This document shows positions 27,200-40,354 of a DNA stretch of 53,750 nt, piece by piece. Each line of letters starts with the position of its first letter. Position 1 is the stretch's first letter. The translations under genes and the position numbers were made by a program. The notes under the pieces are model-generated. The model searched no databases, had not been told where the DNA came from, and worked only from the letters and a program-made list of their open reading frames with translations. The DNA is from an uncultured Alphaproteobacteria bacterium (GTDB lineage Bacteria; Pseudomonadota; Alphaproteobacteria; Bin95), in the NCBI GenBank assembly GCA_937891825.1, contig CALAHN010000038.1, positions 1 through 53,750 of the forward strand, in the 5' to 3' direction.

Positions 27200-28009
27200 C
27201 TAACCTGCGGCGGCGAACTGCCGGACAGCGTCCATGAAGGGGCGGGGCTGCTCGGCATGCAGCCAATGGCCGGCGTCCTTCAGGGCCGCGAACCGGGTTT
27301 TCGGGAACAGCTTCCGGATCAGCGGCTTGTGCTCCGGCTTCACATAGTCGGACGCGCCCCCGGTCAGAAACAGCGACGGGCCGTCGTAGCGCACGCCCTG
27401 CGGCGGTTCAGGAAAGCCCAGGACATTTTCCATGTCGGCCGCGAGCACGCCGAGATTGCACCGCCAGCGAAAGCCGCCAGCTTCATCGGTCACAAGGTTC
27501 TGCAACAGGAAGCCGCGCACGCCGTTGTCGGGAATGGCGTCGGCCAAGGCCGTGTCGGCGTCGGCGCGCCGCTGGATGGACCCAAGGTCGAGGGCGGCCA
27601 TGTGTTCGACATAATCAAGGAAGGTCGAGCGTCCGACGCGCGCATAGGCGACCGGCGCGATGTCGGCGACGATCAGCTTGCCGACGATCTCCGGCGCGTT
27701 GAGCGCCAGCGTCATCGCCGCCTTGCCGCCCATGCTATGGCCAAGGACGGTAGGGGCGCCAAGGTCATGGGCGCCGATATACGCCGCGACGTCCGCCGCC
27801 ATCGCCTCGTAGGACATGCCATCGACCCAGGGCGACCGACCGTGATTGCGCAGGTCCAGGGCGTGGACTTCGTGATCGGCGCCCAGGCGCTTGGCGATCG
27901 CCATCCAGTTGCGCGCGGCCCCAAGCAGGCCATGCATGATGACCAGTTTGGGGCCGTGGCCCTCGCCATAGATATCGCTGGCGAGCGCGACCGTTTCGAC
28001 GGCGGCCAT
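27200..28009 (-). CDS. alpha/beta-fold esterase (YbfF-like)
   Basis: A 269-aa alpha/beta hydrolase. The oxyanion strand is LVIMHGLLGAARNW, the nucleophile elbow is VLGHSMGGKAAM, the acid lies in the FLTGGASDYVKPE region, and the catalytic His is in LKDAGHWLHAEQP. LDLRNHGRSPW is typical of the YbfF/acyl-CoA esterase-like subgroup. The start is 11 nt after the FecR-domain gene stop, so it may be the third gene of the Slam-like/FecR operon, although it looks like a general cytoplasmic esterase. Confidence 0.88.
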   Translation of the reverse strand: MAAVETVALASDIYGEGHGPKLVIMHGLLGAARNWMAIAKRLGADHEVHALDLRNHGRSPWVDGMSYEAMAADVAAYIGAHDLGAPTVLGHSMGGKAAMTLALNAPEIVGKLIVADIAPVAYARVGRSTFLDYVEHMAALDLGSIQRRADADTALADAIPDNGVRGFLLQNLVTDEAGGFRWRCNLGVLAADMENVLGFPEPPQGVRYDGPSLFLTGGASDYVKPEHKPLIRKLFPKTRFAALKDAGHWLHAEQPRPFMDAVRQFAAAG

Positions 28010-28020
28010 AACCTCGCGGG

Positions 28021-30846
28021 TCAGCCGCCAGCTCGTTCGGCGACTGCGGCGCCGACCGCTTCAAGCCCGGCGCCGTTGTTGATGTCGATCGTCACGCCAA
28101 GGTTCTGCGCGCCTGCGCCGAAGAACGCGCCAGCGCCGCTGCCGACATTCGCCGCATCCTGGAAGTAGGTCACGTTCAGGGCCGAATTGCCGACGGCATG
28201 TTGCCCGATGACCGTGAAGGCGTTCGCCCCAAGGTTCATGTCGCCCGCGCTGACGCCGGTCTGGAACTGCACGTTCATGGAGAAGTCGCCGCGCATGAAC
28301 TGCGGGCTGTCGAGGCCCGGCTGCAAGACGGAGGCGAAGGCGCCGCCGGTGAAGGTCGCCGACCCGGTTACGGGCATATCGATCGTCGGCGTCGGGACGC
28401 CGGCGAAGAACACGCCGATATCGGATACGGAATTGCTGAGTTCGCCCGGATTGGCCTGACCGCCGGCGATAAAGCCCCAATGCATGAATTCGCAGACGCA
28501 TGGCCGATCATTCGCGTTCAGGACCGCATCGGCGGCGACCGCGATGAAAGCGATATCGTTGCCGTCGGCGAAGCCAGAATCCAGGGCGGACTTGGCGATC
28601 GCAAAAGTCTTATCGTCCATGAACGCGGATTGACTGCCGACATTTTCGATTATGACACGGATGCCTTCCTGGTCGTGCAGGTGGAAATGGGCTAAAATTT
28701 CGCCGTCGTCCCGGTCGATGGTTAATGTGCCGGGGCCGTTTTCTGCGTCGGGGTTGGTGACCAGCGCCTCTAATTCATCTTCAGCATTGACGATGAAGAT
28801 CGCCCCGAACAGGGTTTCGATCGTCGTGCCCGCGCCCGGATTGTTCAAGGCGAACGGCGTCGTCGCCTCAAGGCCGAATTGGTGGTTCTGGCTGACGACG
28901 GGCGGTTGTTGGCCCGCCTCCGTCTCATTCGGCGTGATCGTCGCGTGGAACCCATCCATCGTGACGGCTTTTTCGCCATTGGGGTCGCCGAGCGGATTGC
29001 CCGTCGCGGCGCCAACATGCAGTCGGCGCGTCTCGATATCGTTCAGGAAAATGTGCGACGAGCCGACATTGTCGCCGACGAAACGCACCAGCGACTCGCC
29101 GCCGCCGCCCGTGACATTGCCCGCGACCGCCTGAATGCCATAGGCCTTGTCGCTGCCGGGTTCGCCATTCACGTTCTGGAAAACGCCGCCGGCATACATG
29201 AACTTGCGCTTGTCCCAATCGACGATCAGCGGCGTCTGATTGACGGCGGCGTCGTCGAACAACCGGGTGTTGGCGTCGTCGATGCCGTTGATCGGCAACT
29301 GAAAGAGGCCGATATCCGAATAGGGCAATACGGAAGCAGTTTGGCTGTCGCCGCTTAGCGCGAAGTGGGTTTGCCCGGTCGGCAGCGACAGGAAACCGCG
29401 ACCGCCGAAGACCGTAATGCGCGACCCGTCGATGCCGTTGAAGTCTTCCGTCGAAAGGTCGTAGTTGAAAAAGAGGTCGCCTGAAACATTCTGGGCTTCG
29501 ATGACAGCCGCCCGAAGGCCGCCGACGGCTTCGGCGCGATTGGCGTTAAAGGTTTCCGGCGACAGATAGGTGCGTGTGTCTTCGCTGTTGAAAACGTTCG
29601 TGACCGCATCGGGATCGCCCGCGCCGCCGACGGAGAACGAGAGCGGTTGGCCATCGAATCGGGAAATCAGCAAGCCTTCGTTGCCTTCGATCGCGATGAA
29701 GCGATCGCCGATTTCTTGATCCGCGGCATTCAAATCGCCAAGCTGCTGGCTGCCGCCCCCGACCGGGGTCGCGCCGGGCAGCTCCAGGTTGCTGACCGAG
29801 CTGCCGGCCACGCCGATGCCGAATCCGCCCGCGCCGATGTTGGCCTCATCGATATTTTCGTTGTTCTCCACAACTGGAACAACCTCGAGCAAGCCAGACG
29901 TGGAGCCGAGGATCAAATTTCCTTGCAGGGCGCCCGAGACCGTAAATATCTCCGTGATGTTGAATTCCTGCGCCAGGTCGATAATCGGCTCTTCCACCTC
30001 GGTATCGTCCTCCGGCTCAAGCACCAGGGTTTCGTCGACGGGGGTTTCGCCGTTCGGGGTCTCGTTATCGTCCTGCGTATTCTGGTTATTGGCGTTCGTG
30101 CCGTCATTGGTCGGCGGGGCTTCCGAGCCCCCAACCGGCGTGGAGCCCAACTGCTCCTGAGCGCCGGTATCGGTGGGCTTCTCAGGCGCGCCGGCGGCTG
30201 CGCTGGCGCGACCCTCCAGCTTCGCCAGCGAGTTCCCGAGCGTCGCCGCCGTCGCGGGCTGCGGCGCGCTGGCGCCCTTGTCCTGCTCGATCCGGGTAAA
30301 ATAGCCGTGCCGGCGGACGCTGAAATTCTGGCCGGTATCCGTCACCCCCTGAATGGCTTCGCCGTAAAGCAGGGTCACATCGACGACGGTGTCCGAGATG
30401 ACGTTAATCAAGGCGACGCCGCCGCGAATGCCTATGGTCGCGACCGGCGTCCGGACGCTGACGGACCCGGTTTTCGACAGGCGCCCGCCGACAAACCGCA
30501 TCAGGCCGCGCGACAGGTTCAGCGCCATCTCGCCCGTTTTCTTGTCCGGGTCATAGACGAACTTGTCGATAGTGAGTTCGGAATTCGGCGCGACGGTGAC
30601 CGCGCTCTGATCCAGCATCAAAAGCTGCGCCTGGCCATTCTCGCCGGTCTTGATGACTTCCTCGAACACGACGTTCTGGCCGACGACCAGAATGCGCTCA
30701 TTCTGCGCCGGCGGCCGCGACAGGGCGTCGGTGTTGACCGCGGCGGCGACGCCGGCCTCACGGGCTTCAGCGCCGGGCGTCCAAATCAGCAGTGCTGCGA
30801 TCGCGACGCTGAGTGCGGCGAAGCGGAAGGTATGGCGGGAAGCCAT
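28021..30846 (-). CDS. large FecR-domain exported protein, probable Slam/T11SS-like cargo
   Basis: A 941-aa exported protein. Residues 1-28 form a Sec signal peptide (core FAALSVAIAALLIW, cleavage after AEA) with no lipobox Cys. Residues about 50-155 are a FecR domain (NERILVVGQNVVFEEVIKTG, SAVTVAPNSELTIDKFVYDP, SVRTPVATIGIRGGVALINV). Residues about 220-290 are an acidic Asn/Asp/Glu/Pro linker. The large middle part is beta-rich with no recognised domain. A C-x-C motif with a downstream WG (PCVCEFMHWGF, Cys783/785) precedes a C-terminal beta-strand domain of about 140 residues (TGSATFTGGAFAS, GDFSMNVQFQTG, GAGAFFGAGAQNLGVTIDI) resembling the barrel of TbpB-type Slam substrates. AGGAG precedes the ATG. 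It lies 18 nt after the Slam-like gene. Confidence 0.75.
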   Translation of the reverse strand: MASRHTFRFAALSVAIAALLIWTPGAEAREAGVAAAVNTDALSRPPAQNERILVVGQNVVFEEVIKTGENGQAQLLMLDQSAVTVAPNSELTIDKFVYDPDKKTGEMALNLSRGLMRFVGGRLSKTGSVSVRTPVATIGIRGGVALINVISDTVVDVTLLYGEAIQGVTDTGQNFSVRRHGYFTRIEQDKGASAPQPATAATLGNSLAKLEGRASAAAGAPEKPTDTGAQEQLGSTPVGGSEAPPTNDGTNANNQNTQDDNETPNGETPVDETLVLEPEDDTEVEEPIIDLAQEFNITEIFTVSGALQGNLILGSTSGLLEVVPVVENNENIDEANIGAGGFGIGVAGSSVSNLELPGATPVGGGSQQLGDLNAADQEIGDRFIAIEGNEGLLISRFDGQPLSFSVGGAGDPDAVTNVFNSEDTRTYLSPETFNANRAEAVGGLRAAVIEAQNVSGDLFFNYDLSTEDFNGIDGSRITVFGGRGFLSLPTGQTHFALSGDSQTASVLPYSDIGLFQLPINGIDDANTRLFDDAAVNQTPLIVDWDKRKFMYAGGVFQNVNGEPGSDKAYGIQAVAGNVTGGGGESLVRFVGDNVGSSHIFLNDIETRRLHVGAATGNPLGDPNGEKAVTMDGFHATITPNETEAGQQPPVVSQNHQFGLEATTPFALNNPGAGTTIETLFGAIFIVNAEDELEALVTNPDAENGPGTLTIDRDDGEILAHFHLHDQEGIRVIIENVGSQSAFMDDKTFAIAKSALDSGFADGNDIAFIAVAADAVLNANDRPCVCEFMHWGFIAGGQANPGELSNSVSDIGVFFAGVPTPTIDMPVTGSATFTGGAFASVLQPGLDSPQFMRGDFSMNVQFQTGVSAGDMNLGANAFTVIGQHAVGNSALNVTYFQDAANVGSGAGAFFGAGAQNLGVTIDINNGAGLEAVGAAVAERAGG

Positions 30847-30864
30847 GGCTGGTCTCTCCTCTGG

Positions 30865-32235
30865 CTAGAAGCGCAGATTGGCGCCGAGCGTAGCGCTGAA
30901 ATTCTCGAAATCGTTGTTCGGAATGTTCGACAGGTTCCACTGGTAGCCCAGGGTCGTGAAGACGCTCCACCCGTCCGCCAGCGGCACCGCGACGGTTGAA
31001 TTGACGCGAATGTCGTCGTCCTGGCGCGTGTCGTTCGCGACAAGCAGATTCGGGCCGTCATGCTCCCGATTGGAGTAGCGGCCGTTCAAGGAGAAGTTCC
31101 ACGGCGCGGCCACCAGGGCGAAATCCTCATCGCCCTCGAACGGGGAGTCGAAGCGCATGTTGAAGGTCATCGACGCGCCGAGTTCCCTGTAGGCCTCGAA
31201 GTCGGACCTGGCGTCGACGATCCCGGCGAAGACGCGCCCGCGGACGGCCATGTTCTGGTCGATCTCATGGATCGCGCCGAGCGCGACTTCATATGCGGCG
31301 CCGTCCTGGGTGTTGGAGTTCTGCCGCTCCTTGGTCACATAATATTCCCGGTCCTCGGCGAGGCTGTTCAGGAACAGGGTCGTCTTGTCGAAAGCTTTCC
31401 AGTCGATATCCAGGCCACCGCCGAGCGAGAAATTATAGCTCTCGTCGTCAAGCCGGACATAGGTCGCGCGCATGTGCGGCCGCACCAGCACCGGCGTATC
31501 GGGGGAGGGGTAGTAGCGCAGTCCCGGTCCGGCGATCACGCGGAAATGCTCGACGTCCAATGTCGTCAGTTCGAGCTGCCGGGCGCCGTAGACAGAGCCT
31601 TCGATGCCGAAAAAGTCGCCCGCATCGTTGCCGATATCGTAAACGTAGCGGCCGGTCAGCGCGAAGAACGCATTAAAATCGTCGTCGGCTTCGGTGTCGT
31701 CGTTGGGGTTGGCGGGCGCATTCAGAACCAGGACCTGGCCTTCAGGCCCGTAGTTCGCGTTCGACTGATAGCGGCCGCCGAACGCCAGCGAACCGCTGAA
31801 ACGGTTCTTCGACTTGGTCTCGTCGATCTTGGAGAGGAATTCCTGGATGCGATCCTGCACCTCGACCGGCACGCCGGGGGACTTCAGGGCGTCGGTCAGG
31901 TAGCTGCGGGCGGTATCGAACGAGCCGAGCCGATAGTAGAGGATGCCAAGCTCGGTCTTCACGCGCGGCAGGTCCGGGTTGAACAGCAGCAGGCGTTCGT
32001 AGGACGTGATCGCGGCCTCATAGTCGCCAGCCGCTGTCGCCATCTTCGCGTAGTCGTAGGTCTTGTCGAGATTTGTCGGGTCCGCGAGGATGCCCTGGAA
32101 CGCCGCGTCAAGCTCGCGACGCATTTCCGGCGAGACATTCTGCGCGTCGGCTTTCGGAGAACTCAGGAGAGCGAGGGCGCCAAGAAAGCCGACAAATGCC
32201 AGCGCTGAACAATTCTTGGCCTTCATAGCGCGCAT
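30865..32235 (-). CDS. TPR plus outer-membrane beta-barrel protein, Slam (type XI secretion)-like
   Basis: A 456-aa outer-membrane protein. A signal peptide ends near SSPKADAQN. Residues about 35-140 are TPR-like (YDYAKMATAAGDYEAAITSY, LGILYYRLGSFDTARSYL). From about 150 to the end, amphipathic beta-strands alternate (SGSLAFGGRYQSNANYG, PHMRATYVRLDDESYNFSLG, NFSATLGANLRF), ending in Phe as outer-membrane barrels do. Periplasmic TPR followed by a barrel with a GxxYxSN start is the layout of Slam/DUF560 translocons, which export proteins across the outer membrane. The start at 32235 was chosen because AAAGGAG precedes it; the frame extends ten codons further. The FecR-domain gene follows by 18 nt, the expected place for a cargo gene. 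Confidence 0.78.
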   Translation of the reverse strand: MRAMKAKNCSALAFVGFLGALALLSSPKADAQNVSPEMRRELDAAFQGILADPTNLDKTYDYAKMATAAGDYEAAITSYERLLLFNPDLPRVKTELGILYYRLGSFDTARSYLTDALKSPGVPVEVQDRIQEFLSKIDETKSKNRFSGSLAFGGRYQSNANYGPEGQVLVLNAPANPNDDTEADDDFNAFFALTGRYVYDIGNDAGDFFGIEGSVYGARQLELTTLDVEHFRVIAGPGLRYYPSPDTPVLVRPHMRATYVRLDDESYNFSLGGGLDIDWKAFDKTTLFLNSLAEDREYYVTKERQNSNTQDGAAYEVALGAIHEIDQNMAVRGRVFAGIVDARSDFEAYRELGASMTFNMRFDSPFEGDEDFALVAAPWNFSLNGRYSNREHDGPNLLVANDTRQDDDIRVNSTVAVPLADGWSVFTTLGYQWNLSNIPNNDFENFSATLGANLRF

Positions 32236-32300
32236 GTCTGCGCTCCTTTGGGGAGTGTGCTGCAAATCCGGGAAATCTTACGTCCGCGCGCCATTCCAGT

Positions 32301-32670: not shown

Positions 32671-33654
32671 TCATGTCGGATAGAGGCCGGCGGTCCGCGC
32701 CCGAAGTTGGACGAGCGCCAGAACCGCGTTCAGCATCGGCGTCTCGACCCCGACGATGGCGCCAAGCTCGGTGACTGCCGTCACAAGCGCGTCGATTTCC
32801 ATCGGGCGGCCGCGTTCCAGGTCCTGCAGCATGGAGGTCTTGTGCTCGCCGACCTCGAACGCGGCGGCAAGGCGGCGCTCGGCCGTCACCCGGAAGCGGG
32901 CGCCCACGGCTTCGCCGACGGCGCGGCCCTCGGCCGCCAGCGTGAAGAGCAGCGCCTTCGTCGCCGCATCCCGGCCGAGGCCCGCGAGCGTCGCGCCCGT
33001 CAGCGCCGAAACCGGGTTCAGGCAGAGATTGCCCCAGAGCTTCATCCAGATGTCGTCCCGGATCTTGGCGCGGATCGGCGCCCGCAGGCCCGCCGCCGTC
33101 AACGCATCCGAAAGCGCCGTGATCCGCGCGGTCTTTTCGCCCGACGGCTCGCCGATCGGGTAGGCGTCGCCTTCCATATGCTGAATGACGCCGGGCGCCG
33201 TGATTTCGACCGCCGGATGCACGACCATGCCGATCGCCCGTTCGGGGCCGATGCCGGTCCATTGGGCGCGGCCGGGATCGACCGTCTCCAGCGTTCGGCC
33301 CGCATGGGCGCCGCCGAGGCCGTGGAAATACCACCAGGGCACGCCGTTCATGGCTGTAACGACCGCGGTATCGGGGCCGAGCAGCGGCTGCATCGGCCCG
33401 ACGACGCCGGCGCTCTGGTGGGCTTTCAGCGTGACGATCACAAAGTCCTGGACGCCGAGCGTCGCCGGATCGTCGGTCGCCTTCGGCCGGGCGGTGAATT
33501 CGCTGCCGTCCTGAAACTTGCAGACCAGGCCGTTCGCCTGCATCGCCGCCAGATGCGGCCCGCGGGCGATCAGCGCTACGTCCGCGCCCGCGCGGGAGAG
33601 CATGCCGCCCAGATGCGCGCCGATCGCCCCCGCGCCATAGATCGCGATCTTCAT
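32671..33654 (-). CDS. ketopantoate reductase family protein (2-dehydropantoate 2-reductase-like)
   Basis: A 327-aa NADPH-dependent reductase of the ApbA/PanE family. The N-terminus MKIAIYGAGAIGAHLGGMLS is the Rossmann motif; the central Lys region is KIRDDIWMKLWGNLCLNPVS, and the C-terminal helix bundle contains SMLQDLERGRPMEIDAL, as in PanE proteins. The ATG at 33654 overlaps the GlcD-like oxidase stop by 4 nt. In an operon with a D-2-hydroxyacid oxidase and an MFS carrier, a catabolic 2-oxoacid/2-hydroxyacid role is as plausible as pantothenate synthesis, so I give no gene symbol. Confidence 0.88.
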   Translation of the reverse strand: MKIAIYGAGAIGAHLGGMLSRAGADVALIARGPHLAAMQANGLVCKFQDGSEFTARPKATDDPATLGVQDFVIVTLKAHQSAGVVGPMQPLLGPDTAVVTAMNGVPWWYFHGLGGAHAGRTLETVDPGRAQWTGIGPERAIGMVVHPAVEITAPGVIQHMEGDAYPIGEPSGEKTARITALSDALTAAGLRAPIRAKIRDDIWMKLWGNLCLNPVSALTGATLAGLGRDAATKALLFTLAAEGRAVGEAVGARFRVTAERRLAAAFEVGEHKTSMLQDLERGRPMEIDALVTAVTELGAIVGVETPMLNAVLALVQLRARTAGLYPT

Positions 33655-37122: not shown

Positions 37123-38651
37123 TGCCAGGGTCGCTGGCGCGCTTCAAGCCGCCACGGCAGCACATGCCGTGGCTCGATGCGCTGATCGAGGCGTTTCAAT
37201 CCACGCCCGATGCGCCGAGCGAACCGGTCGCCCGCCTGAAAGACCCGTGGCCCGGCGACGCCGGCCGCGCGGAAGTGCTGATCCAGCAGGAAGCCGAACT
37301 GATGGCGGCGCTGGACCCCGATCCCCATGACCCGGAATTGGCGCGGGATCATGTGCGCCGGGGCAGGGCTCAGTCCTTCACCTGGCTGCGCGACCTTCGG
37401 TCCGCCGGCGGCGATGCGGCGCGGCGCGCGGCGCGGCGCGGCGTCACGACCTGGATCGAGACCAATCGTCGAAGCGACCCCATCGGCTGGCGGCCCGATA
37501 TCGTCGGCCAGCGGCTCTCCGCCTGGATGGGCGCCTATGAATTTTATGCCGCAAGCGCCGGCCCAGCCTTCCGCGCCGAGGTGATGGAGCAGACGGCCGT
37601 GCAGGTGGCGTGGCTCCGCCGGCGCATCGATCTGGCGCCGCCCGGCCCTGGCCGGTTCGCGGCGCTGGCCGGGCTGGCGGCCGGCGCCGCCGCGATCGGC
37701 GGGTCGGAGGCCATCCTGACCGAAGTCGACCGCGCGCTGGTCCGGGCGATCCGCAAGGAACTTGCGCCCGATGGCGGCCTGATCGGCGCGGCGCCGCTGA
37801 CCCAGCTCGATGCATTGATGCGCTTGCTCGATCTCCGCGCCGCCTTTGCCGCAGTCGGCCGCCCGCCGCCGGAGGCGAGCAGCGACGCCGCGAGCGCCAT
37901 GGCGGCGCCGCTTGCCGCCTTGCGCTTTGGGGATGGCGGGCTTGGCGTGTTCAGCGGCGGCGAAGGCGATCCCTGGACCATCGATCTGGCGCTCGCGGCG
38001 TCCGGGTGGCGCGGCCGCGCGCCCCTGGACCTGCCGCAAGCCGGCTTCGCCCGGGCGGTCGCGGGCCGGTCGACGCTGCTGACATGCGCTGGCCCCGGCG
38101 CCTTCGAATTCGGCCATGGCGGCGACCGTCTGGTGACCAGCACGGGCGCCAATTCCGATGCGCCGCCCGCGCGCTTCGAAGCGCCGGGCATCTCGCATTT
38201 CTCCGCGCCGTGCTTCGCCGGCGGCCGGATGGCGGCCGGGGCCGCCGTCGAGCGCGACGCCGATGGCGGCGCGACCCTGCTGACCCTAGCCAACACATGG
38301 TCGCGACCCCAGGCCGAATGGCGCCGTCGCCTCTACCTCGCGGCCGACGGGCATGACCTCCGCGGCGAGGATTGCGCCGTCGGTCCGGCCGGACAGGCCA
38401 TGGTCGTAGCGTTCCACCTGCACCCCAGCGCCGATGCAATCCAGTTGGACGATGGCGGCGTCCTGGTGCGCGCCCATTCCGGCCAGGGCTGGCGGTTCCG
38501 GGCCGATCGACCTGCCCGGCTCGCCGCCGAACCCTACCGCGGCCGGCCGGGCGCCGCCGCTGCCGCCCTTCGCATCGAAGCCCCGGCGGCGTTCGACGGC
38601 GAGGGCAAACTCTTGCTGCGATGGGCATTCCGCATGGAGCGCGCGATCTAG
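37122..38651 (+). CDS. heparinase II/III-like family protein
   Basis: A 509-aa protein whose layout fits the heparinase II/III-like family: an alpha-helical first half ([60 protein letters not shown]) and a beta-sheet second half ([39 protein letters not shown]). I recall members next to purH in alphaproteobacterial genomes, where their function is not established. The start is a GTG overlapping the rpe stop. No signal peptide is visible, so periplasmic polysaccharide cleavage would need another export route. Residues of a lyase active site cannot be assigned by eye. Confidence 0.8.
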
Positions 38652-38734
38652 TTACCGCGCTGTTTGACAGGGCCTTCGCCTTCCGCGCAAAACCCAGGCT
38701 TCTCGACAGTATTCATGCTTGGAGTCGCCCGTTC

Positions 38735-40354
38735 ATGGCCGTTTCGCTCGATTTGCCGCCAGCGCCGGATCTCGTCAGGATCAAACGCGCGCTGATTTCC
38801 GTGTCGGACAAGACCGGCATTGTCGCATTCGGACAGTTCCTGGCGTCCCAGGGCGTCGAGGTCTTGTCGACAGGCGGCACCCGCAAGGCGCTAGTCGAAG
38901 GCGGCGTCGCGGCGATCGAAGTCGCGGACGTGACCGGCTTCCCCGAAATTCTGGACGGCCGGGTCAAGACCCTGCATCCGAAGGTGCATGGCGGCCTCCT
39001 GGCAGTGCGCGGCCTGGCCGCCCACAAGGCGGCGCTGGAAGAGCATGGCATGCCGGAAATCGATCTTCTGGTCGTGAACCTCTACCCATTCGAGGCGACG
39101 GTCGCCGGCGGCGCCGATGCCGCGACCTGTGTCGAGAACATCGATATCGGCGGGCCGGCGATGATCCGTGCGGCCGCGAAGAACCACGGCTATGTCACGG
39201 TCGCGACGGCGCCGGACCAGCTTGAGGCGATTCAGGCGGAAATGGCGGCGCAGAGCGGCGCGGTTTCGTTCGACCTCCGCCGCCGCCTTGCCGGCGAAGC
39301 CTATGCGCGGACGGCCGCATATGACGCCCGGATCGCCGGATGGTTCGCCGAACAGCGGGGCGAAGTCCTGCCGGCGACGCTGCCTCTCGCCGGAACCGAA
39401 GGCGAGATCCTGCGCTATGGCGAAAACCCCCATCAGGCGGCGGCGTTCTACCGGATGCCGGACGCCGCAGGCCGTCTTCGCTTGGGCGTCGCGACCGCCA
39501 CGCAGCTTCAGGGCAAGGAGCTGTCCTACAACAATCTGAACGACACCGACGCCGCCTTTGAGCTGGCGGCGGAATTCGATGTTCCGGCAGTCGCCATCAT
39601 CAAGCATGCCAACCCCTGCGGCGTCGCCACTGGCGCGACCTTGCTGGAAGCCTGGCAGGCAGCATTGAAGTGCGACCCGGTCAGCGCCTTTGGCGGCGTG
39701 ATCGCCGTAAACCGGACGCTCGATGCGGCGACGGCGGCGGCGATCGGCAAGCTGTTCGTCGAAGTCATCATCGCGCCGGACGTCGCCGAAGACGCGGTCG
39801 CGGCGCTGGCGAAGAAGAAAAACCTGCGCTTGCTGAAAACCGGCGGCATGCCCGACCCGGCGGCGAAGGGCCTGACCGTCAAGACGCTTGCCGGCGGCCT
39901 CCTGGCCCAGACCCGGGACGACGGCCGGATCGGCGAGGCGGACCTGAAGGTCGTGACCAAGCGGGCGCCGACGGCGGCCGAAATGGCGGACCTGCTGTTC
40001 GCCTTCCGCGTCGGCAAGCACGTCAAGTCGAACGCTATCGTTTATGTAAAGGGGCAGGCGACGGTCGGGGTCGGCGCCGGCCAGATGAGCCGGGTCGATT
40101 CGGCGCGGATCGCGGCGCGAAAAGCCGCCGACGCTGCCGAAGCCGCTGACGAAGCTGTGCCATTGACCGTGGGTTCGGTCGTCGCGTCGGACGCTTTCTT
40201 TCCGTTTGCCGACGGCCTGATGGCGGCGGTCGAAGCCGGCGCCACGGCGGTGATCCAACCGGGCGGCTCGATCCGCGACGACGAGGTGATCGCCGCCGCC
40301 GACGCCGCCGGCATCGCCATGGTCTTCACCGGCATGCGCCATTTCCGGCATTAG
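38735..40354 (+). CDS. purH: bifunctional AICAR formyltransferase / IMP cyclohydrolase
   Basis: A 539-aa purine biosynthesis enzyme catalysing the last two steps to IMP. The N-terminal cyclohydrolase domain (about 1-200) shows [50 protein letters not shown] and [11 protein letters not shown]. The C-terminal transferase domain has [33 protein letters not shown], the catalytic [23 protein letters not shown] and the end FPFADGL...[10 protein letters not shown]. The ATG at 38735 has TGGAG nine bases upstream; the open frame extends further but reads over the heparinase-like gene. A perfect TTGACA at 38664-38669 may be a -35, though no convincing -10 follows. Confidence 0.97.

Follow-up and report, generated by a model that had tools for sequence, protein, structure and literature searches.

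A divergent Slam-like barrel encoded beside a FecR-domain protein with a TbpB-type lobe: a candidate translocon-client pair in Alphaproteobacteria

Most known cargo proteins of the type XI secretion system (T11SS), to which the Slam outer-membrane proteins belong, come from bacteria that live in association with hosts (PMC8406197, PMC12282271). In S. meliloti the NsrA protein is required for signalling by a CHASE2 cyclase (PMC7529298, PMC13001267), and gene clusters with FecR, TPR and CHASE2 cyclase genes have been noted in Campylobacterota (PMC9239204). LapA is anchored in its own export channel by an N-terminal retention domain (PMC6890996). A full-text search of the open-licence literature found no paper linking DUF560, Slam or SlipAM with FecR; the main text of two T11SS surveys mentions neither FecR nor Rhodospirillales, and the later survey does not mention CHASE2. 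The gene pair described here, which has features in common with each of these systems, lies in a contig of an uncultured alphaproteobacterium, and the whole stretch of 53,750 nucleotides that was analysed is referred to as the window.

The original prediction had described a TPR-barrel gene followed after 18 nt by a gene for a 941-aa protein, and both open reading frames were found on the minus strand with that spacing between the pore stop and the cargo gene (Table 1; gene calls were mechanical). The pore gene starts with an ATG at 32235 preceded by AAAGGAG, and an in-frame TTG at 32265 is an alternative start that would give a protein of 466 aa. The ATG of the cargo gene is preceded by AGGAG. 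An alpha/beta hydrolase gene on the same strand, 11 nt downstream of the cargo gene, is probably co-transcribed with the pair and shows no sign of belonging to the pore-cargo system. Upstream, a PanE/ApbA-family gene on the same strand ends at 32671, and ~435 bases remain for a promoter. The other neighbours examined were a transketolase-like gene (named from its sequence) and genes for GAPDH, an FAD-linked oxidase, an MFS transporter and purH. No iron-uptake, heme, TonB or TonB receptor, sigma-factor, FecA receptor or cyclase genes were seen among the window genes examined, and no polysaccharide synthase was seen adjoining the pair. The purH gene lies at 38372-40354(+), ~6 kb from the pair; nucleotide and one-carbon genes have been reported to co-occur with T11SS genes (PMC12282271), and the proximity observed here is probably a coincidence.

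Table 1. Positions in the window of the pore and cargo genes, their predicted domains and the downstream gene
Feature	Position	Strand	Basis
Pore gene, 456 aa, divergent Slam/T11SS (SlipAM-type) translocon candidate	30865..32235	-	profiles, model
Pore: periplasmic TPR domain, six helices, residues 36-141	31813..32130	-	Pfam TPRs, model
Pore: 14-strand barrel, residues 144-455	30871..31806	-	AlphaFold2; OmpG and CymA folds; SlipAM barrel-only profile
Cargo gene, 941 aa, FecR-domain cargo protein	28021..30846	-	Pfam, NCBIfam, model
Cargo: signal peptide, residues ~1-28, cleavage motif AEA, without lipobox	30763..30846	-	by eye from sequence; cysteine check
Cargo: FecR domain, residues ~30-190	30277..30759	-	PF04773; PupR signalling domain 6ovk
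Cargo: low-complexity linker, predicted disordered, residues ~214-380	29707..30207	-	pLDDT 27-51 by block; composition
Cargo: beta-rich middle, residues 381-700, modelled at low to medium confidence	28747..29706	-	model
Cargo: handle-like part of C-terminal lobe, residues 706-816, with C783 and C785	28399..28731	-	sequence, model, structural matches
Cargo: C-terminal 8-strand TbpB/fHbp-type barrel, residues 829-938	28033..28362	-	slam_lipo; NHBA 6cuj, fHbp 4ayn
Alpha/beta hydrolase gene	27200..28009	-	Pfam

The pore protein carries a signal peptide. Structure models were built from alignments of the loci collected in this analysis, and the AlphaFold2 model of the pore, computed with 56 relatives, has the anticipated fold of a TPR domain and a barrel of exactly 14 long strands (pLDDT 92.8 overall and >90 over most of the barrel). 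The Foldseek list for this model contained OmpG, CymA and other porins and included BcsC and PelBC, the nearest PDB folds of the barrel being 14-strand OmpG (Z 20.9) and CymA (Z 22.1). A PDB sequence search with a Slam relative returned no Slam entry for direct structural comparison, and the Slam homology of the pore rests on profiles.

In single-sequence Pfam searches, TPRs were the matches of the window pore above cut-off, TPR_Slam reached 17.9 bits against a cut-off of 35.2 bits, and SlipAM (PF04575) gave no match even at E 1. Among the 56 relatives, SlipAM was matched by 11 (best E 7.9e-14), TPR_Slam by 23 and BBP2_2 by five, and one relative scored 24.1 bits against PF04575, which has a cut-off of 22 bits. 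A barrel-only profile of 13 Slam references, most of them checked one by one against PF04575 (66-122 bits), picked out 71 of the 77 family pores from a set of 5,569 ORFs and matched nothing unrelated, and profile-profile comparison of the pore-family and Slam barrels gave a probability of 99.8% over 273/277 columns. The family forms a large branch of its own in the pore tree, apart from most Slam references. At the level of profiles, the pore is a divergent relative of DUF560/SlipAM (Slam); the proposed Slam relationship is supported for the family, and the window pore by itself misses PF04575.

The Sec-type signal of the cargo, which was judged by eye from the sequence, leads straight into the FecR domain, ahead of which there is neither a cytoplasmic anti-sigma domain nor a transmembrane helix. 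No cysteine occurs in residues 1-150, so there is no lipobox. FecR (PF04773) was matched at residues 64-163 with 43.9 bits (cut-off 24), and the domain resembles the PupR cell-surface signalling domain (6ovk, Z 16.8). The earlier description of an exported, FecR-containing protein without a lipobox agrees with these results. Its description as giant does not, as 941 aa is not exceptionally large in the family, in which relatives with two TbpB-type domains reach 1,632 aa.

The AlphaFold2 model of the cargo is confident for the FecR domain, has very low confidence in the linker, is unreliable in the middle region (381-700) and ends in eight strands, as had been expected of a TbpB-like C-terminus. 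The C-terminal lobe resembles NHBA (6cuj, Z 16.0), the fHbp barrel (4ayn, Z 15.6) and also the hemophilins 7re4 and 6om5; its nearest solved structures in the Foldseek and VIA lists were TbpB, LbpB, fHbp, NHBA and hemophilins, which are Slam substrates. The NCBIfam model slam_lipo (NF041636) matched residues 808-926 (E 1.2e-10, 41.9 bits, against a whole-protein cut-off of 80), and this match is independent of the alignments built here. Single-sequence Pfam searches gave no TbpB-family match to the window cargo, and TbpB_B_D or FHBP_C was matched by some of its relatives. A profile of 26 such cargos matched LbpB (1.5e-5) and NHBA (1.7e-5) in the PDB. Because iteration of the C-lobe profile dropped the window cargo, the uniterated version, for which the window cargo was one of the seeds, and NF041636 were relied upon. 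Ahead of the C-terminal barrel there is a CxC pair followed by W-G (window 28492-28500; C783, C785), which most of the long cargos aligned share; it is a possible disulfide or metal site.

The pore profile was searched in 387 genomes of the class Alphaproteobacteria at a threshold of 1e-8, and 104 of them contained a match. Eighty strong pore ORFs were fetched, a few of which are fragments or lie at contig ends. A FecR protein was adjacent on the same strand at 53 of these 80 loci, downstream at 52 and upstream at one, with most within 100 bp, and FecR was nearby or divergent at six further loci. Among non-seed, full-length pore loci the same-strand neighbour was present in 42 of 65. A separate scan of named genomes, a set that overlaps in part with the class set, found a FecR neighbour at 59 of 80 pore loci, all with alphaproteobacterial or proteobacterial titles and from genera such as Reyranella, Ferrovibrio, Oceanibacterium, Microvirga, Chelatococcus, Enhydrobacter and Vineibacter; linked-locus counts include related genomes. 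When the cargo was searched in the 387 genomes at 1e-60, all 38 matched genomes were pore-positive. Some of these 38 had given sequences to the cargo profile, and the fairer figure, with such genomes excluded, is 16 out of 16 (P 1.2e-11, relatedness ignored). Several pores without a FecR neighbour have unlinked FecR-TbpB cargos elsewhere in the same genome, one genome (G258) containing four that are full-length. Pore and FecR co-occur far above chance, in line with the pairing originally proposed from architecture and gene order.

The partners themselves vary. Of 55 adjacent FecR partners, 21 (~40%, window cargo included) carry a TbpB-type lobe, and the other 34 show none. Many FecR partners are short and have no TbpB lobe, some of the lobe-less ones ending in proline-rich or low-complexity tails, and in most partners a low-complexity stretch follows FecR. 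The pore tree, in which some long branches meet, implies at least seven changes between TbpB-lobe and lobe-less partner types and contains a 25-row clade without TbpB-lobe partners. What stays constant beside the pore is FecR, and the TbpB-type barrel comes and goes. Because 34 of the 55 adjacent partners are without the lobe, the pore family must do more than Slam-like export, and it works with FecR proteins generally; the reading as Slam-type display applies to the subset to which the window pair belongs.

Several loci depart from the common arrangement. The FecR partner at L074:5554-6762(-) ends in an intein/Hint-like domain in place of the TbpB lobe and is possibly a self-processing client, and those at L108:6529-11391(+) and L119:6422-11320(+), of ~1,620 aa, have two TbpB-type domains each. 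Cadherin/Big repeats were matched as well by one of the aligned cargos. At L071, L120, L124 and L179 the pore and a short FecR protein are followed by a glycosyltransferase gene, hinting at another sub-group. Locus L091, from a genome of the window genome's family (G008), has an ordinary Slam gene (SlipAM, 70.8 bits) whose neighbour encodes a 633-aa protein that contains two TbpB_B_D domains but lacks FecR. Multiple SlipAM genes occur in several genomes of this family; the SlipAM model found no match in the window genome.

A CHASE2 adenylate/guanylate cyclase is encoded within ~5 kb of 34 of 77 pores, where ~0.5% would be expected from a rough background, the CHASE2 density in nine genomes. 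Such a cyclase is near 12 of the 21 TbpB-lobe loci, including one in a genome of the window genome's family (G007), and Paracoccus aminophilus and Shinella have rows of pore, FecR and cyclase genes. No CHASE2 cyclase lies beside the window pair. The five CHASE2 genes of the window genome are all on other contigs, and two of them (G000:C43 44981-48012 and G000:C98 53457-56158) are near genes for small FecR proteins of ~175-212 aa; these loci are candidate partners in trans. NsrA of S. meliloti (L180:1729-5388, 1,219 aa), encoded just upstream of cyaK, carries FecR at its N-terminus (a modest match, E 2.8e-7 in a profile search of 16 ORFs); TPR-like repeats are also present, and the second half of the protein holds a barrel. 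Because the pore profile did not match NsrA at E up to 10, the likeness is one of architecture by analogy and not of family membership.

The pair is probably a T11SS-like translocon with a dedicated, non-lipidated client that is displayed at the surface, its FecR domain staying in the periplasm and possibly signalling. The computed basis of this reading comprises the SlipAM barrel homology, the TPR domain and 14 strands, the TbpB/fHbp-type fold of the lobe, the FecR fold and the genetic linkage, from which we infer secretion of the cargo and signalling by FecR. Sec would take both pore and client across the inner membrane. The client's C-terminal TbpB-type lobe would be recognised by the pore and passed to the cell surface, while the N-terminal FecR domain would fold in the periplasm and stay there, so that the disordered linker, threaded through the pore or lying alongside it, would hold the non-lipidated client at the surface. 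As FecR/PupR and NsrA suggest by analogy, the FecR domain kept in the periplasm may inform an inner-membrane partner of the ligand state of the surface lobe; in many relatives this partner would be the CHASE2 cyclase encoded nearby, and in the window genome it would necessarily be encoded elsewhere. N-terminal retention is proposed on the precedent of LapA, on the low-complexity stretch behind FecR in most partners and on a weak relation of the FecR region to the retention module: with the FecR part of the cargo profile, the antifreeze protein (RTX adhesin) entry 5ix9 was matched at 1.8e-4, and the LapA retention-module model was matched by three cargos. The missing PF04575 match of the window pore, a slam_lipo score at about half its cut-off, the 34 of 55 adjacent partners without a TbpB-type lobe and the lack of a cyclase, TonB receptor or iron gene among the window genes examined are points against this display reading.

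Since FecR is the constant partner, CHASE2 cyclases are frequent neighbours and NsrA combines FecR, TPRs and a barrel in one analogous protein, the client is no less likely to be tethered or to signal than to be secreted freely. It is possible, though doubtful, that the Slam-type translocon is itself part of a trans-envelope receptor, in which the TbpB-like sensor lobe leaves C-terminus first, FecR stops in the periplasm and the binding of a ligand outside is relayed to inner-membrane CHASE2 cyclases; if true, this would join type XI secretion to cyclic-nucleotide signalling. A receptor that exports nothing, in which the barrel senses an outside ligand and FecR relays to the CHASE2 cyclase as in a split NsrA-CyaK, would be consistent with the excess of cyclases near the pores, the gene rows in Paracoccus aminophilus and Shinella, the domain content and cyaK linkage of NsrA (PMC7529298), the Campylobacterota clusters and the many short FecR partners without a TbpB lobe. 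We nevertheless regard it as unlikely, as it leaves unexplained a Slam-cargo lobe on ~40% of adjacent partners, including that of the window, where moreover no cyclase is a neighbour, and the NsrA barrel is unmatched by the pore profile.

The Sec signal without a lipobox and the hemophilin matches of the lobe could also indicate a soluble, hemophilin-like protein that is exported whole through the Slam-like pore and freely secreted, as the framing of the original prediction implies, and a soluble T11SS cargo is known (PMC8406197). An N-terminal FecR domain better suits a periplasmic location, however, a long linker separates it from the lobe, and no heme or TonB genes are among the neighbours examined, which together make free secretion quite improbable. 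That the barrel is of another TPR-bearing kind, such as a BcsC/PelB polysaccharide exporter or a BBP2-type porin that merely lies beside FecR genes, is hardly credible: BBP2_2 matches in five of 56 members and the presence of BcsC and PelBC in the Foldseek list are outweighed by the larger number of SlipAM matches (11 of 56), the specificity of the SlipAM barrel profile for family pores, the 14 strands with a short TPR domain and the lack of an adjoining polysaccharide synthase in the window.

If such pores serve FecR-prefixed, non-lipidated clients throughout the class, T11SS would reach into free-living Alphaproteobacteria, and there would be a suggestion of how a client stays at the surface without a lipid anchor. 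The family would also provide CHASE2 cyclases, few of whose signals are known, with a candidate input at the outer membrane, and the pairing may connect the display of a surface protein with intracellular signalling.

In comparison with the known systems, the window pore has in common with Slam/T11SS outer-membrane proteins (DUF560, PF04575; Slam1, NilB, HrpB) an N-terminal TPR domain, a C-terminal barrel of 14 predicted strands with related sequence, and a gene beside that of a TbpB-type cargo, but it is below Pfam detection, belongs to a separate branch of the tree and has a FecR protein as its constant neighbour. The window cargo likewise has the handle-like region, C-terminal 8-strand barrel and Sec signal of T11SS cargo (TbpB, LbpB, fHbp and NHBA fold; hemophilin), whereas its N-terminal FecR domain, disordered linker and lack of lipidation set it apart from cargo with a TbpB_B_D or lipoprotein-C barrel; the FecR-linker-TbpB architecture is missing from the ~ten cargo architectures listed in PMC12282271. 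FecR, TPRs, an outer-membrane barrel and, beside many relatives of the window pair, a CHASE2 cyclase are common to NsrA/CyaK of S. meliloti, although NsrA is a single 1,219-aa protein whose barrel is unmatched by the pore profile and in which no TbpB-type lobe was found, and the window pair has no adjoining cyclase. The FecR/PupR domain fold (6ovk, Z 16.8) is shared with anti-sigma signalling proteins, from which the cargo differs in having a cleavable signal peptide and no cytoplasmic anti-sigma part, and in that no sigma factor or FecA receptor was seen next door. With LapA-type RTX adhesins, the cargo has in common a weak relation of its FecR region to the N-terminal retention module and possibly C-terminus-first export with an N-terminal stop; those adhesins leave via an ABC/TolC type I system, whereas the window cargo is paired with a Slam-type barrel.
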